A stretch of DNA of 64,000 bases from Fimbriimonadaceae bacterium (GCA_019638775.1 JAHBTD010000004.1:186001-250000), one strand, 5' to 3'. Positions 30,594 through 53,151 are shown, counted from the stretch's first letter. Notes: a model not told the origin generated them from the sequence alone. Made by a program: numbers and translations.

Positions 30594-30657
30594 ATATTTC
30601 CAGACGCTTGCGGCAGGGCGCTCCGTGCGGGCATTTGATGTTGCGGCTGTTTGGTGG

Positions 30658-30788
30658 GCGGTGGCTTGCCGACTTTTCAAGCTGAGATTGGGGGAGTCCG
30701 TCGTATACTGTGAGGGGGAGTTCTTAGCCTCAGGACTGTAGGATGAGACAGGATGCGCGTTAAGCTATGCGCGTCCTGAGGCATCAAA
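30658..30788 (+). repeat. cassette element A (promoter-like part plus hairpin)
   Basis: Left part contains TCGTATACTG (TATACT at 30704-30709). Right part is a hairpin whose arms are TTAGCCTCAGGAC (from 30725) and GTCCTGAGGC (30773-30782), ending in ATCAAA. An inner hairpin (ATGCGCG around TTAAGCT) is specific to this copy. It precedes orphan gene 1. Confidence 0.75.
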
Positions 30789-30837
30789 CATCTGGTTAAA
30801 TATGCGATGATCTTCGACCTGTTTAAGGAGGTGCTAC

Positions 30838-31668
30838 GTGCTAATTGTTAGCATTATTTCTCTAATTTACCTGCAATCTGACGCATTTAAGCTTCCCGTT
30901 GTGGACGCAAGAGTCACTTCCGTATCATATTCAACTTCGCTCAGTGGTGTCTTGGTTACCCAAGATGTGGCACATTCTGAAAAAAGTAATAGTCGAACTT
31001 CTATAGGAATTGTTAAGAATTTGAGTCCTTTTGTCAGCGAAGAGTACATTAGCACATCAGGTTACATGGTTATCAAAAGCGATCTGTCTCGCATCACCGT
31101 CGCAAATTACTTTGAAATGGCGACGGCTTTGACACCCAATGAATACAGTGAGCCTGAGAGAAAATGCGTTAAGCTTATTGAGCGGCAAGGCTATGCGTTT
31201 CAAAATCGTTACAAGTGCTGTTCGCGCATCACCGACAACTTGTCAGTGTGGGTTACCAAAGATCGAACTATAGGTCAATCAAAAGTACCTGAAGTTCGAA
31301 GAGACAGCGAAGGTAGCTATCGACTTTATCTAACAGATGACTTAATTGAGAAAGATGATGAAGTGAGCTACATCATCTTGCTTGTAGATAGTAAAGAAGA
31401 GACAGCAAAGGAAGTTTTACGGCTACGTAAAAAACCCCTGCATATAGAAAGAAAAGTAAGTAGCGAAGTCGCAATAGATCCGCAATCCAAGATACTATAT
31501 TCATGTTACGATGGACTTTTTTTTGCGCTTCAGTTAGATAGCTTTTTCCGTGTTACCGGAGTTGCTTCAAAACAAATGATGTGTGGTGCCGCAACTTTTG
31601 ATGCCTCAGGGCTGCAGGCCGTAGCCGGAGAGAGGATGAGAAGTGCGCACCCTGAGGCATCAAAATGA
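30838..31668 (+). CDS. AT-rich orphan gene 1, exported protein
   Basis: A 276-residue protein that I do not recognise. The start is a GTG at 30838 with a perfect Shine-Dalgarno (TAAGGAGGTG) six bases upstream. The N-terminus VLIVSIISLIYLQSDAFKLP is hydrophobic and may be a signal peptide or anchor. The body is beta-strand-rich, with a KCCSR pair. The last 24 residues (from DASGLQAVAGERMRS) are encoded by hairpin element B, so the C-terminus is repeat-derived. Its stop overlaps the start of the next gene (ATGA). Base composition is far more AT-rich than the chromosome around it. Confidence 0.65.
   Translation: MLIVSIISLIYLQSDAFKLPVVDARVTSVSYSTSLSGVLVTQDVAHSEKSNSRTSIGIVKNLSPFVSEEYISTSGYMVIKSDLSRITVANYFEMATALTPNEYSEPERKCVKLIERQGYAFQNRYKCCSRITDNLSVWVTKDRTIGQSKVPEVRRDSEGSYRLYLTDDLIEKDDEVSYIILLVDSKEETAKEVLRLRKKPLHIERKVSSEVAIDPQSKILYSCYDGLFFALQLDSFFRVTGVASKQMMCGAATFDASGLQAVAGERMRSAHPEASK
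31596..31665 (+). repeat. cassette element B (hairpin only)
   Basis: A perfect 16-bp inverted repeat: TTTTGATGCCTCAGGG at 31596-31611 and CCCTGAGGCATCAAAA at 31650-31665. The loop starts CTGC and ends TGCGCA, so pairing can continue past one bulged C. The last A is the first base of the next start codon. Confidence 0.85.
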
Positions 31669-32078
31669 GGGCATTTCGCGGCGTTCTGTTGCTACTGGCG
31701 ATTGGGCTAGGATTTTTGCTCCCAAGCATGGGCACGCCTAACAATGTTCGTGGTGTACTCCTCTTTGTTACAGCCTTTATTATCCTTGGCCATGCAATTC
31801 TCTATCCTAAATCCATCAACATGGAGGGCAAATACCGCCGATCAAGGAAAGCTGAAGCGTCCTTGCTGCTTGCATTCCCTCTATTATATTTTATTACTAG
31901 TGTTATTGCAGCATTCCTGACTGAAATCAGTTTGAGATCAAAATTCACAGCTGGACTTTTGTATAGTTTATTCATAATAATGATAGTAAGTATAGTTCAT
32001 GTGATAATCATACACTACTATCGAGCGCTGATAGCTGCGAAAAATAGTAGTGAAGACCTCGGCCAAGAAGGACCTTGA
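31665..32078 (+). CDS. AT-rich orphan gene 2, small membrane protein
   Basis: A 137-residue protein with four hydrophobic helices (about residues 5-22, 28-46, 65-85 and 92-115) and a short polar tail. The ATG overlaps the stop of orphan gene 1 (ATGA), implying translational coupling across the hairpin. No family is recognisable. The size and membrane character would suit an immunity protein, but that is a guess. Its last dozen codons run out of frame through the Rhs remnant, so the original C-terminus may have been different. Confidence 0.6.
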   Translation: MRAFRGVLLLLAIGLGFLLPSMGTPNNVRGVLLFVTAFIILGHAILYPKSINMEGKYRRSRKAEASLLLAFPLLYFITSVIAAFLTEISLRSKFTAGLLYSLFIIMIVSIVHVIIIHYYRALIAAKNSSEDLGQEGP

Positions 32079-32280
32079 TCTCACCACCTATGTGTACGAT
32101 TGGGGGATCGCCTGATTGGGCAGCAGATTGCGAATGCGTGGGCGACGCATTCGTCCATGATGAAGTTGGGAACATCCTAGGGAAACAGCATCAGGCCAAG
32201 GCTCCCATGACCATGGTCTATGACCTTGCCGGAAGGAATACCACCCTGATCCAAGGCGAGATGATGACGACACTTGGATG
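32041..32280 (+). pseudogene. Rhs/YD-repeat gene remnant
   Basis: Two frames hold typical Rhs repeats: DLDLTTYVYDWG (from 32071, then a stop) and, in the next frame, FVHDEVGNILGK and TMVYDLAGRNTTLIQG. The change of frame falls near a GGGGG run at about 32092. The remnant is bounded on the right by element C'. It is the relic of a large Rhs/wall-associated or polymorphic-toxin gene. Confidence 0.7.
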
Positions 32281-32341
32281 CCTCAGGACGCACTTACCTC
32301 CTCAGTCCACCCATGCAGGCATACAGTCTTGAGGCTAAGAA
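32274..32341 (-). repeat. cassette element C' (hairpin only, inverted)
   Basis: Read on the minus strand it begins TTCTTAGCCTCAAGACTGTA and ends GTGCGTCCTGAGGCATCC, matching element A in the same order. It abuts the Rhs remnant and faces element C head to head. Confidence 0.75.
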
Positions 32342-32364
32342 CAGGGCCTGCCAACTGCAAGAAA

Positions 32365-32508
32365 CGCAGCGCGGCTACCTTCTAATATCTCTGACCGGGC
32401 GTGTCCGTCGTATACTGAGAGGGTGAATTAGGAGTCGGCAGTCTCAGCCTCAGGGCTGCGGACAGGGACAGGAGAAGGAGGGCGGAGTACGCACCTTGAC
32501 GCATCAAA
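32365..32508 (+). repeat. cassette element C (promoter-like part plus hairpin)
   Basis: The left part CGCAGCGCGGCTAC aligns with element D, then GTCCGTCGTATACTGAGAGG with TATACT at 32411-32416. The hairpin arms are GCCTCAGGG (32447-32455) and CCTTGACGC (32494-32502), followed by ATCAAAA and directly by the ATG of orphan gene 3. Confidence 0.8.
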
Positions 32509-32509
32509 A

Positions 32510-33058
32510 ATGAGACTACCTCATATCCTAATCTTACTTGCAATGACAACAGTAATCATTACCACTAGCGTAGTGTTAAATCATTATTCGCACTCCCAAA
32601 CACAGAAGATACGAACACACAGTTATATTACTGATGGGTTTCTAAAACTTTCAAAGACAACTATCTTTGATTCACCGATCATTATTGACAAGTCTGATCC
32701 TACGAAAATGAAATTGTGTCGACAGTTATCGAACATCATTGACCGCCATGGGGCCTATCCAGCGACACCGATGGCGGAGGTCGAAAAGCAAAGCGAGGGT
32801 AAAGCCATTGTAACTATTGTGGATCCATCCGTGTGCGATTCCATGTTTGCAAGCACTGACGACTGCTTGGCTACAGCCGCATCTTGCCAATGGATGATTG
32901 AAACACATCCACAAGTTGAACAATTTGAGCTGCATGTCTATTACTCAGAGGTTCAGCAGTGCTGGTTTGGCGTCATTACGCCGTTTCCGGCAAAGCCTGA
33001 TCTGTATCACGAGTTGACATTGGTAAGGTCACCCGACGGTTCATATATGGTTCGGTAA
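32510..33058 (+). CDS. AT-rich orphan gene 3, single-pass or secreted protein
   Basis: A 182-residue protein with one N-terminal hydrophobic helix (MRLPHILILLAMTTVIITTS) and a polar remainder containing four or five cysteines. I do not recognise a domain. The ATG comes immediately after the ATCAAAA end of element C, with no Shine-Dalgarno in the usual place, so the 5' leader would be about 90 bases if TATACT in the element is its promoter. AT-rich like the other orphan genes. Confidence 0.6.
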   Translation: MRLPHILILLAMTTVIITTSVVLNHYSHSQTQKIRTHSYITDGFLKLSKTTIFDSPIIIDKSDPTKMKLCRQLSNIIDRHGAYPATPMAEVEKQSEGKAIVTIVDPSVCDSMFASTDDCLATAASCQWMIETHPQVEQFELHVYYSEVQQCWFGVITPFPAKPDLYHELTLVRSPDGSYMVR

Positions 33059-33081
33059 AGTTGATAACGGATACATATGGC

Positions 33082-33128
33082 TTTGATGCCTCAAAACGCG
33101 CACTCAGACACGCAGTTTGACGCCTCAG
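33082..33128 (+). repeat. two half-arms of the cassette hairpin
   Basis: TTTGATGCCTCAAAACGCGC (33082) and GTTTGACGCCTCAGGACACA (33115) are two direct copies of one hairpin arm without matching partners, immediately before element D. They look like the debris of an older element. Confidence 0.55.
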
Positions 33129-33132
33129 GACA

Positions 33133-33269
33133 CACAGCGTGGCTGCTTTCTGAAATCTTTGATTGGCTTGTCTATCGTATACTGAGGGCGTGGATTCGGC
33201 GGTCTTAGCCTCAGGGCTGCAGGCCGGGACTGGAGCGAGGATGAGAAGTTCGCACCCTGAGGCATCAAA
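33133..33269 (+). repeat. cassette element D (promoter-like part plus hairpin)
   Basis: CACAGCGTGGCTGC aligns with element C, then CTATCGTATACTGAGGG with TATACT at 33178-33183. The hairpin arms are GCCTCAGGGCTGC (from 33208) and CGCACCCTGAGGCATCAAAG (33251-33270). It is almost identical to element B from GCCTCAGGG onward. Confidence 0.8.
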
Positions 33270-33294
33270 GTTATTCCAACGCGCAATTTGCAGC

Positions 33295-33660
33295 ATGTCG
33301 CTTGCGGTGTCTGCCTTACTGACCTATATGCTCAAGTTAGAACTCGTTGCTTTTGGTGGTGCAGCAATACTGTCAACCATTGGATTGCTATTTTGGCTAT
33401 TAAGCAGATGCCAGAGGTCAAGGATAGAGCTTGTAACTTCATGCTTGTTTGTGTCTACTTTATCAGTTAGTTTTCTCTTTTGTGGTTTCAATCGATTTTC
33501 GGTGAACTTGCTTGCCCTAAACATTGCCATCATCGTATGCCTTGAGGTGGTGCTGAAAATCTTTGCCAAAAGGTTTGATCATTGGGGTATTGCGGCGTTG
33601 ATTATTTTCGGAGGATTGATTACTGCATCCATAGTTCAAAATAGTTACAGTAGTATATGA
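33295..33660 (+). CDS. AT-rich orphan gene 4, small membrane protein
   Basis: A 121-residue protein from the ATG at 33295, with four hydrophobic helices separated by short basic loops (RCQRSR, AKRFDHW). The frame is open upstream through element D, so a longer form that includes repeat-encoded ASGLQAGTGARMRS is formally possible. The shorter start gives a normal membrane protein. No family recognised. AT-rich, in the same orientation as the other three orphan genes. Confidence 0.55.
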   Translation: MSLAVSALLTYMLKLELVAFGGAAILSTIGLLFWLLSRCQRSRIELVTSCLFVSTLSVSFLFCGFNRFSVNLLALNIAIIVCLEVVLKIFAKRFDHWGIAALIIFGGLITASIVQNSYSSI

Positions 33661-33674
33661 TTGTTAGAATTATC

Positions 33675-33735
33675 TTGATGCCTCAGGATGCGTAGGACTC
33701 GTGTTACGGTGCATCCTTAAGCCAAAGTCCTGAGC
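33675..33735 (-). repeat. cassette element E (hairpin only, inverted, diverged)
   Basis: On the minus strand it reads GCTCAGGACTTTGG and later CGCATCCTGAGGCATCAAG. It closes the array on the right, opposite in orientation to element A on the left. Confidence 0.65.
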
Positions 33736-33770
33736 TATTGACAACCATACAAGGGCTATATCCCCGAGTA

Positions 33771-51915: not shown

Positions 51916-52812
51916 CTATTCATCCAAAAATATGACATCGTCAGCATCTAAATGCCACATCAATGTTAAAGACCGTAGACTTAACACATCTAGTTTTGCG
52001 CCACCCAATTGACGTCTGCGTATTACAAACCAATTTTTTGATAGTTTCATCTCGTCTATCGAAGAAACTACGCCAAATTCATGTAGTAAGTAATTATCGT
52101 TCTTCTTGAATACAAACAATCGAGTGCTGCCAGCGGAATAATCGACTCTTCTTAAGCCGCGGATAATTACTGTCCTATCTGAATCAGTAACAATCCAAGG
52201 CCCTCGTTTTTCACCAATCATATGTTCACGGAAATCAGGTGATACTAGTCCTTCACCTACGGTCCCGACAAGATCGTGTTTCTTCACTAACGCCATCGGC
52301 AATGATTTATCTTTAACTCCCGTGGACGACGAGTTCCCACCCATCCGTTCAGTCTTGCGCCATTGAACAGTTCCATCTCTCCGTACTTCCCCAGTTGATA
52401 CGACAGCCTGCCTGGAAATCATAGAAACAGGTTCTTCGATCTCGAACTCTGTATTGGATAGCCACTTCGGATTCTTTGCGGTCATTCTATATGAAATAGG
52501 TCCCTTTACAGCAAACGTTTTCGTGTTGAGAATCCATAACTTATAATCATACATTTCATTTGCCCATACGAGAGCAGTACTAAAATCTGAATTTTCCCAG
52601 AGCGTTACTGACTTGAATACTTTTTCGCCCTTCAATCGGACCTCATCTGGCTCTGGATTAATGGTCCATTTATCAGCATCGAACAGATTTTTTCTTACAA
52701 GAATACTTCCGTTTTTTTCTACTTTCGCAATGACAGCCGTATCTGCTTTTACAGTTGGAGATTTCTCATCTACTCGGCTACAAATAATTGTGCATATTAC
52801 CAAGCTAATCAT
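51916..52812 (-). CDS. AT-rich orphan gene 5 (distant member of the cassette group)
   Basis: A 298-residue protein of unknown family. The N-terminus MISLVICTIICSRVDEKSP could be a short lipoprotein signal (Cys near 11). The rest is beta-rich with many W and K residues (KPGPWIVTDSDRTVIIRG style repeats), compatible with a propeller. AGGTGA stands just before the ATG at 52812. It is far more AT-rich than its neighbours, and a diverged copy of the cassette element lies upstream in the same orientation, as with the orphan genes at 31-33 kb. Confidence 0.65.
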   Translation of the reverse strand: MISLVICTIICSRVDEKSPTVKADTAVIAKVEKNGSILVRKNLFDADKWTINPEPDEVRLKGEKVFKSVTLWENSDFSTALVWANEMYDYKLWILNTKTFAVKGPISYRMTAKNPKWLSNTEFEIEEPVSMISRQAVVSTGEVRRDGTVQWRKTERMGGNSSSTGVKDKSLPMALVKKHDLVGTVGEGLVSPDFREHMIGEKRGPWIVTDSDRTVIIRGLRRVDYSAGSTRLFVFKKNDNYLLHEFGVVSSIDEMKLSKNWFVIRRRQLGGAKLDVLSLRSLTLMWHLDADDVIFLDE

Positions 52813-52923
52813 AACTCACCTCATACTCAAACCCACGTATAAGTTGATCGTCGCGGCTGCAATAAACACGATCCCACGACATACTATCTTCTCGTTCACC
52901 ACAGTTACCGCCATCACACCTCC

Positions 52924-53050
52924 GATGCCTAAGAGTGCCAGTCCTTCTTCCCTTCGCTCCACTCCCGCTGCCAGAGCCTAAATCAACGGCAAGCCTCTCA
53001 CGAACTCAGTATACGATGGCTCAAGCTAGCATTCAGCCTCACGATCACAG
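52924..53050 (-). repeat. cassette element F, diverged copy
   Basis: On the minus strand it reads CCATCGTATACTGAGTTCGT (TATACT at 53013-53008), then GATTTAGGCTCTGG, GCGGGAGTGGAGCGAAGG and CACTCTTAGGCATC. These align in order with element D (CTATCGTATACTGAGGG, TTAGCCTCAGGG, CCGGGACTGGAGCGAGG, CACCCTGAGGCATC). The hairpin pairing has decayed. Confidence 0.7.
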
Positions 53051-53151
53051 CGAGTGCGTCACCCAAGCAGGCAACGGGCAAGAGCTCGGGGACGGGACGC
53101 AATACTTCAGCGCGGAGTGTAGGTGTGGGAACACAGGCGGCCTAAAAAACA

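Follow-up and report, generated by a model that had tools for sequence, protein, structure and literature searches.

Genes and repeats of the array

The window analysed in this work is a 64,000-nt stretch (G000:C4:186001-250000) of a 4.3-Mb draft genome. Between a minus-strand gene, named dehydrogenase-like from its sequence, and gatC, it carries four ORFs on the plus strand that alternate with copies of a repeat (Table 1). The GC content of g1, g2, g3, and g4 is 0.42, 0.42, 0.44, and 0.41, respectively, vs. 0.552 for the window, which confirms the first-pass annotation of four AT-rich, plus-strand orphan genes. No Pfam family over the cut-off and no PADLOC match was obtained for the genes of this array, and g1 had no homologue among other genomes in a search of the 113 genomes of its order. 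By eye, the products of g2, g3, and g4, as well as other orphan proteins encoded beside the elements (the 298-aa protein of the window, those of 202 and 265 aa at L029 and that of 106 aa at L238), look membrane-bound, exported or lipoprotein-like.

As had been noted from the sequence, g2 and g3 begin at the end of a hairpin: g2 overlaps the end of B, and g3 starts one base past C. The g1 ORF, which runs through B, shares an ATGA overlap with g2. All six copies named initially (A, B, C, D, C′, and E) were recovered. A, C, and D lie on the plus strand and C′ and E are inverted, as proposed, but B, listed as one more plus copy, proved to be a double-ended palindrome. A partial inverted copy at 33078-33131 and a possible remnant around 30634 had been missed.

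Table 1. Coordinates of the array features, of further element sites and of the RAYT genes in this genome
Feature	Position	Strand	Description
Possible remnant of inverted half 5′ of element A	about 30634-30676		by eye only
Element A	30677-30788	+	upstream of g1; spacer with −10-like TATACT (30704-30709), plus hairpin (30724-30788; repeat copy 30720-30792)
g1	30838-31668	+	276-aa orphan; ORF passes through element B
Element B	31596-31665 (repeat copy to 31668)	+	palindrome TTTTGATGCCTCAGGG...CCCTGAGGCATCAAAA; promoter-like part absent
g2	31665-32078	+	137-aa membrane-type orphan
Composite C′-C	32274-32508	+	inverted hairpin 32274-32338, spacer with TCGTATACTGAG (32408-32419), plus hairpin 32444-32508
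Repeat copy C′	32270-32342	−	repeat search and covariance model
Repeat copy C	32440-32512	+	repeat search and covariance model
g3	32510-33058	+	182-aa orphan
Composite D	33082-33269	+	degenerate inverted hairpin 33078-33131, spacer with TCGTATACTGAG (33175-33186), plus hairpin 33205-33269 (repeat copy 33201-33273)
g4	33295-33660	+	121-aa membrane-type orphan; start codon chosen by the analyst
Element E	33670-33743	−	inverted hairpin, closes the array
298-aa orphan	51916-52812	−	AT-rich (GC 0.41); downstream of the 53-kb degenerate copy
Degenerate copy	52917-53029	−	exact TCGTATACTGAG at 53005-53016; R2 E 1e-13 (in R2 training set); not found by R1
Possible inverted half of 53-kb copy	about 53021-53072		by eye only
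Second array	C2:183.7-185.0 kb		R1 matches
Third place	C2:1138.8-1139.7 kb		beside Mrr-type nuclease gene
RAYT genes of this genome	L136:3543-4109, L137:3638-4210, L138:3436-3936		palindrome types CCCTCCATAAC, GGCAGCG, GGAACC

Structure of the repeat

The repeat unit is an asymmetric hairpin of ~65 nt, TTAGCCTCAGG…CCTGAGGCATCAAA, in which TTAGCCTCAGGRCTG is followed by ~30 variable bases and then by G-C-rich bases with the CCTGAGGCATCAAA end. The hairpin and the promoter-like segment of the first-pass annotation are both real, yet the element to which they belong is larger. Two inverted hairpins whose ATCAAA ends point outward enclose a 57-117-nt spacer and form a composite of ~190-250 bp. The spacer contains GTATACT or ACAATACT, and in one copy TATATTCT. 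The composite structure was seen at junctions C and D, where the sequences can be aligned from the inverted copy via the spacer to ATCAAA and no homology is found outside TTTGAT/ATCAAA.

The six window copies gave E-values of 1e-11 to 1e-26 with the covariance model, all six being part of its training set. Independently of the model, CCTGAGGCATCAAA with at most one mismatch was found seven times within 2.9 kb of the window and 15 times in the whole 4.3-Mb genome, vs. once for the reversed control, while 210 kb sampled from other parts of the genome contained no occurrence with up to two mismatches. TCGTATACTGAG occurs exactly at 32408 and 33175 and with one mismatch at 30701; a further exact copy at 53005-53016 (−) had been overlooked. 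As its 5′ foot the hairpin has TTAG in most copies, but GTAG in three of those in the second array. Stem covariation inside this genome concerns one pair only. Between genera, the ends TTAGCCT/AGGCAT are kept and the inner stem, compared by eye, is altered on both sides, with compensatory examples CCTCAGGG/CCCTGAGG, CCTCAACAG/CTGTTGAGG, and CCTCGGGACC/GGTCCCGAGG. A search for known structured RNAs gave no Rfam match in the window array and one match far below the threshold in the second array. A role of the inverted copies as terminators was considered and rejected, as the terminator scan lists no T-run terminator at them.

Element B is a near-perfect palindrome in which the left arm of an inverted copy is fused to a plus copy. 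We infer, as the order of events, that the middle of one composite, including the promoter-like part, was deleted between two GCCTCAGG direct repeats. Such a deletion would have fused g1 and g2, the g1 frame then running through B and overlapping the g2 start. Double-foot REPs that result from central deletion of an inverted pair have been described (PMC6006769).

Distribution of the repeat and neighbouring RAYT genes

In this genome, covariance model R1 gave 19 matches with E < 1e-3, of which one is the reverse reading of B; strong copies number about 18, distributed over about a dozen loci. Apart from the two arrays and the third place (Table 1), the R1 matches are single sites. A 642-aa ORF resembling a large serine recombinase (L034:5861-7789, minus strand; C2:1139.9-1141.8 kb) adjoins the third site and is possibly an integrated element. 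In the second array, a possible gene for a 40-aa cysteine-rich peptide (L029:5994-6116, plus strand) lies between a plus hairpin and the next orphan. At another site a TIR-like protein with PADLOC PDC-S35 matches (L104:2301-3617, plus strand) is encoded after groEL, with an inverted hairpin closing it off; a hairpin likewise stands 3′ of groEL in G022 (L102). A defence-island reading was rejected: the orphans have no PADLOC match, and only the Mrr-type nuclease and the TIR-like protein, at two other sites, do.

Among the 113 genomes of the order, 17 matched R1, with most matches in G000 (this genome), G006, G004, and G061; for G004 and G006, 23 hits each were counted. Further genera of the family and order contain the same hairpin family. 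When 84,980 species were scanned with a pattern, the hairpin was detected in Armatimonadetes bacterium 55-13 (= G006), and two single matches fell in unrelated taxa.

In several relatives the repeat keeps company with transposase genes. Genes of the PF01797 family adjoin hairpins in G006, G018, G004, and G042, and the four adjacent proteins all pass the NCBIfam cut-off for REP-associated tyrosine transposase (RAYT). In a fifth genus (G010) copies lie within 1.5 kb of a PF01797 (Y1-transposase) gene, and in G006 an ORF with an HxH motif is directly preceded by five plus copies detected by the model, together with degenerate ones. By an estimate from match counts, only about 0.07 (G006) and 0.14 (G004) hairpins would be expected by chance within 1 kb of a RAYT. 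A co-occurring recombinase, which the first-pass annotation suggested looking for, exists beside copies in relatives in the form of a RAYT, whereas the three RAYTs of this genome each carry another flanking palindrome, as judged by eye. For the latter reason these RAYTs were rejected as the mobilising enzyme, yet C4:147662 is 40-43% identical to the element-associated RAYTs. In the window itself the claimed lack of a recombinase was borne out for Y1/RAYT transposase and integron integrase, the types searched. In the RAYT tree the element-associated RAYTs were not united as one clade, and a single 12-kb comparison inside the G006 genus yielded no element site that could be aligned.

Because copies flank RAYT genes in other genera, we assign the repeat to a REP/REPIN (BIME, MITE-like) family and not to integron-type attachment sites; RAYT adjacency combined with kept ends and an inner stem changing on both sides is typical of a REP family accompanied by its RAYT. 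This agrees with a MITE-like repeat or mobile 5′ leader, which had been named initially as alternatives. In an integron-type array the palindromes would serve as attC sites for recombination by a tyrosine integron integrase, and the 65-70-bp palindromes do alternate with single codirectional orphan genes as in integron cassette arrays. However, those arrays have an integrase and attC boxes, and neither was found here: no integrase passed the TIGR02249 cut-off in the draft assembly, weaker integrase matches were also present in 14 of 14 control genomes, no common GTTRRRY/RYYYAAC box was seen at the palindrome ends, and the bases after ATCAAA differ between copies. As the hairpin moreover adjoins RAYT genes in relatives, the integron reading was rejected as hardly credible.

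The repeat resembles REP/BIME/REPIN elements and their RAYT (TnpA_REP; PMC3116915, PMC3733652, PMC6006769) in that a short foot stands 5′ of a palindrome, copies are mostly intergenic and form inverted pairs, RAYT genes are flanked by copies (in relatives) and a central-deletion double-foot form exists. Against this reading stand several differences: about 18 copies are few for REPs, which usually number >100 according to the available text of PMC2817692; the loop, at 40 nt, is longer than the 2-15 nt described; most copies have TTAG and not GTAG as their foot; and no cognate RAYT was found in this genome. The long GTATACT spacer and the link to AT-rich orphans are further differences. Also opposed is a near-identical block of the second array, consisting of the spacer and the left half of the plus hairpin, which ends inside this hairpin and not at ATCAAA; simple copying of a whole composite does not predict this. 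On the other side, RAYT/TnpA_Y1 classes without a GT[AG]G foot have been described (PMC6006769), and the identification of the element as a REP/REPIN variant is well supported.

As a REP, each 65-nt hairpin is a long form with a TTAG/GTAG-like 5′ foot and a AGGCATCAAA tail, and the repeated unit is a composite of two such inverted REPs around the spacer. Its spread is attributed to a RAYT, a single-strand DNA transposase that recognises foot and hairpin. Since the copies have diverged from each other, we regard the family as old and its enzyme as probably missing from this genome, and the copies look orphaned, as the three RAYTs present carry other palindromes.

Association with AT-rich orphan genes

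The copies are strongly tied to AT-rich orphan genes in this genome. A covariance model of spacer plus hairpin (R2), in which nine of the ten full matches are its own training set, chosen by sequence, yielded ten promoter-bearing copies in this genome. Nine of them have a codirectional orphan gene next (g1, g3, g4, the 298-aa gene, two genes of the second array and single genes at C2:821, 1139, and 70 kb), whereas the tenth, at 796 kb, points at the end of a convergent gene. A GC content below 0.47 was determined for seven of the ten downstream genes (the nine and g2) vs. three of 168 background ORFs (Fisher p = 1.4e-8); counted by locus, as genes of one array are not independent, the ratio is four of six. 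Insertion at random places with no orphan link, which the first-pass annotation had set against its own proposal, thus does not describe this genome.

The accessory, AT-rich orphan genes follow the plus end of the element at a distance of 0 to about 150 nt. Spacer direction carries information only at junctions whose two neighbouring genes are codirectional; at all five of these the promoter-like side faces the next gene start (p = 0.03 under random direction). As the spacer has no conserved −35 and a sigma-70 scan gave no excess of sigma-70-type sites, the basis for promoter function is weak. We nevertheless consider it probable that the composites of this REP/REPIN (BIME-type) family served as mobile 5′ leaders or promoters that became fixed beside acquired AT-rich genes, a promoter activity suggested by the position of the spacer and its −10-like GTATACT. 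The array would then represent several composites between neighbouring accessory genes.

Chance or selection only, with an old REPIN family surviving mainly in weakly constrained accessory islands and doing nothing for the neighbouring genes, would account for the diverged copies, the lack of a cognate RAYT in this genome and the few copies that stand between ordinary genes here. Yet the spacer direction, though only at p = 0.03, and the nine of ten copies facing an orphan gene speak against it, and we regard this as rather unlikely.

A more far-reaching explanation is that the unit of promoter-hairpin, gene and inverted hairpin moves whole, being excised and inserted by a RAYT that acts in trans on the two hairpins, with arrays growing by cassette insertion. 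The window array opens with a plus and closes with an inverted copy, its units contain one or two genes each, and every gene points the same way; most inverted copies begin no more than ~25 nt from a stop codon; the genes are AT-rich orphans; and in the second array the near-identical block adjoins different genes. However, the first gene of the second array has no 5′ copy and the last one no 3′ copy, and the single genes at 53 kb, C2:70 kb, and C2:821 kb have a 5′ element and no clear 3′ inverted copy. Most copies in G004, G006, and G013 form inverted pairs around a short spacer, and the majority of these are flanked by genes whose GC content is ordinary. Furthermore, REPs commonly stand just behind stop codons anyway (PMC3733652), and a literature search, confined largely to journals outside subscription, gave no RAYT-moved gene cassette. 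Movement of whole units therefore appears quite improbable, and a REP/RAYT-type system in which single accessory genes, each enclosed by an inverted REP pair, travel as cassettes with a promoter of their own and build up integrase-free orphan-cassette arrays seems very doubtful. The preference of the first-pass annotation for a gene-cassette or module-exchange system was not sustained, given the missing integrase and GTTRRRY box, the single genes without a 3′ partner and the copies between ordinary genes in relatives.

Correia elements are one example of bacterial MITEs with outward promoters. MITEAba12 is another, according to the available text of PMC6382973. Such MITEs are alike in being short and non-autonomous with inverted ends and a possible outward promoter, but they derive from DDE-type insertion sequences, whereas the hairpins described here are shared with Y1 (HUH) transposase genes. 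In Thauera, GTAG-1 REP arrays flank exopolysaccharide genes, whose expression they have been suggested to direct or modulate (PMC3733652). There, too, REPs immediately flank clustered genes; yet these are known gene clusters, in contrast to the single orphans with the element's own promoter-like spacer found here.

Our results place a REP/RAYT family with its own ends (TTAGCCT...AGGCATCAAA) in Armatimonadota, for which no earlier report was found in the literature searched; the same search, again mostly of journals outside subscription, gave nothing pertinent on REP-bracketed orphan-gene arrays or RAYTs in Armatimonadetes. They also provide a clear case of such repeats preceding, and perhaps driving, foreign-looking genes that are AT-rich. 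Should the spacer be a promoter, silent incoming genes would have a simple route to expression, and if whole units move, they would constitute a new kind of gene cassette.

The palindromes beside the three RAYTs of this genome represent three further REP families. A second, short REPIN family with TTTAGCCTCAACCCTAAGAAGGATTGAGGCATAAAA pairs was observed in a tandem duplication (L140:3540-4060; C1:739.5-740.1 kb), and its outer ends are those of the long family.
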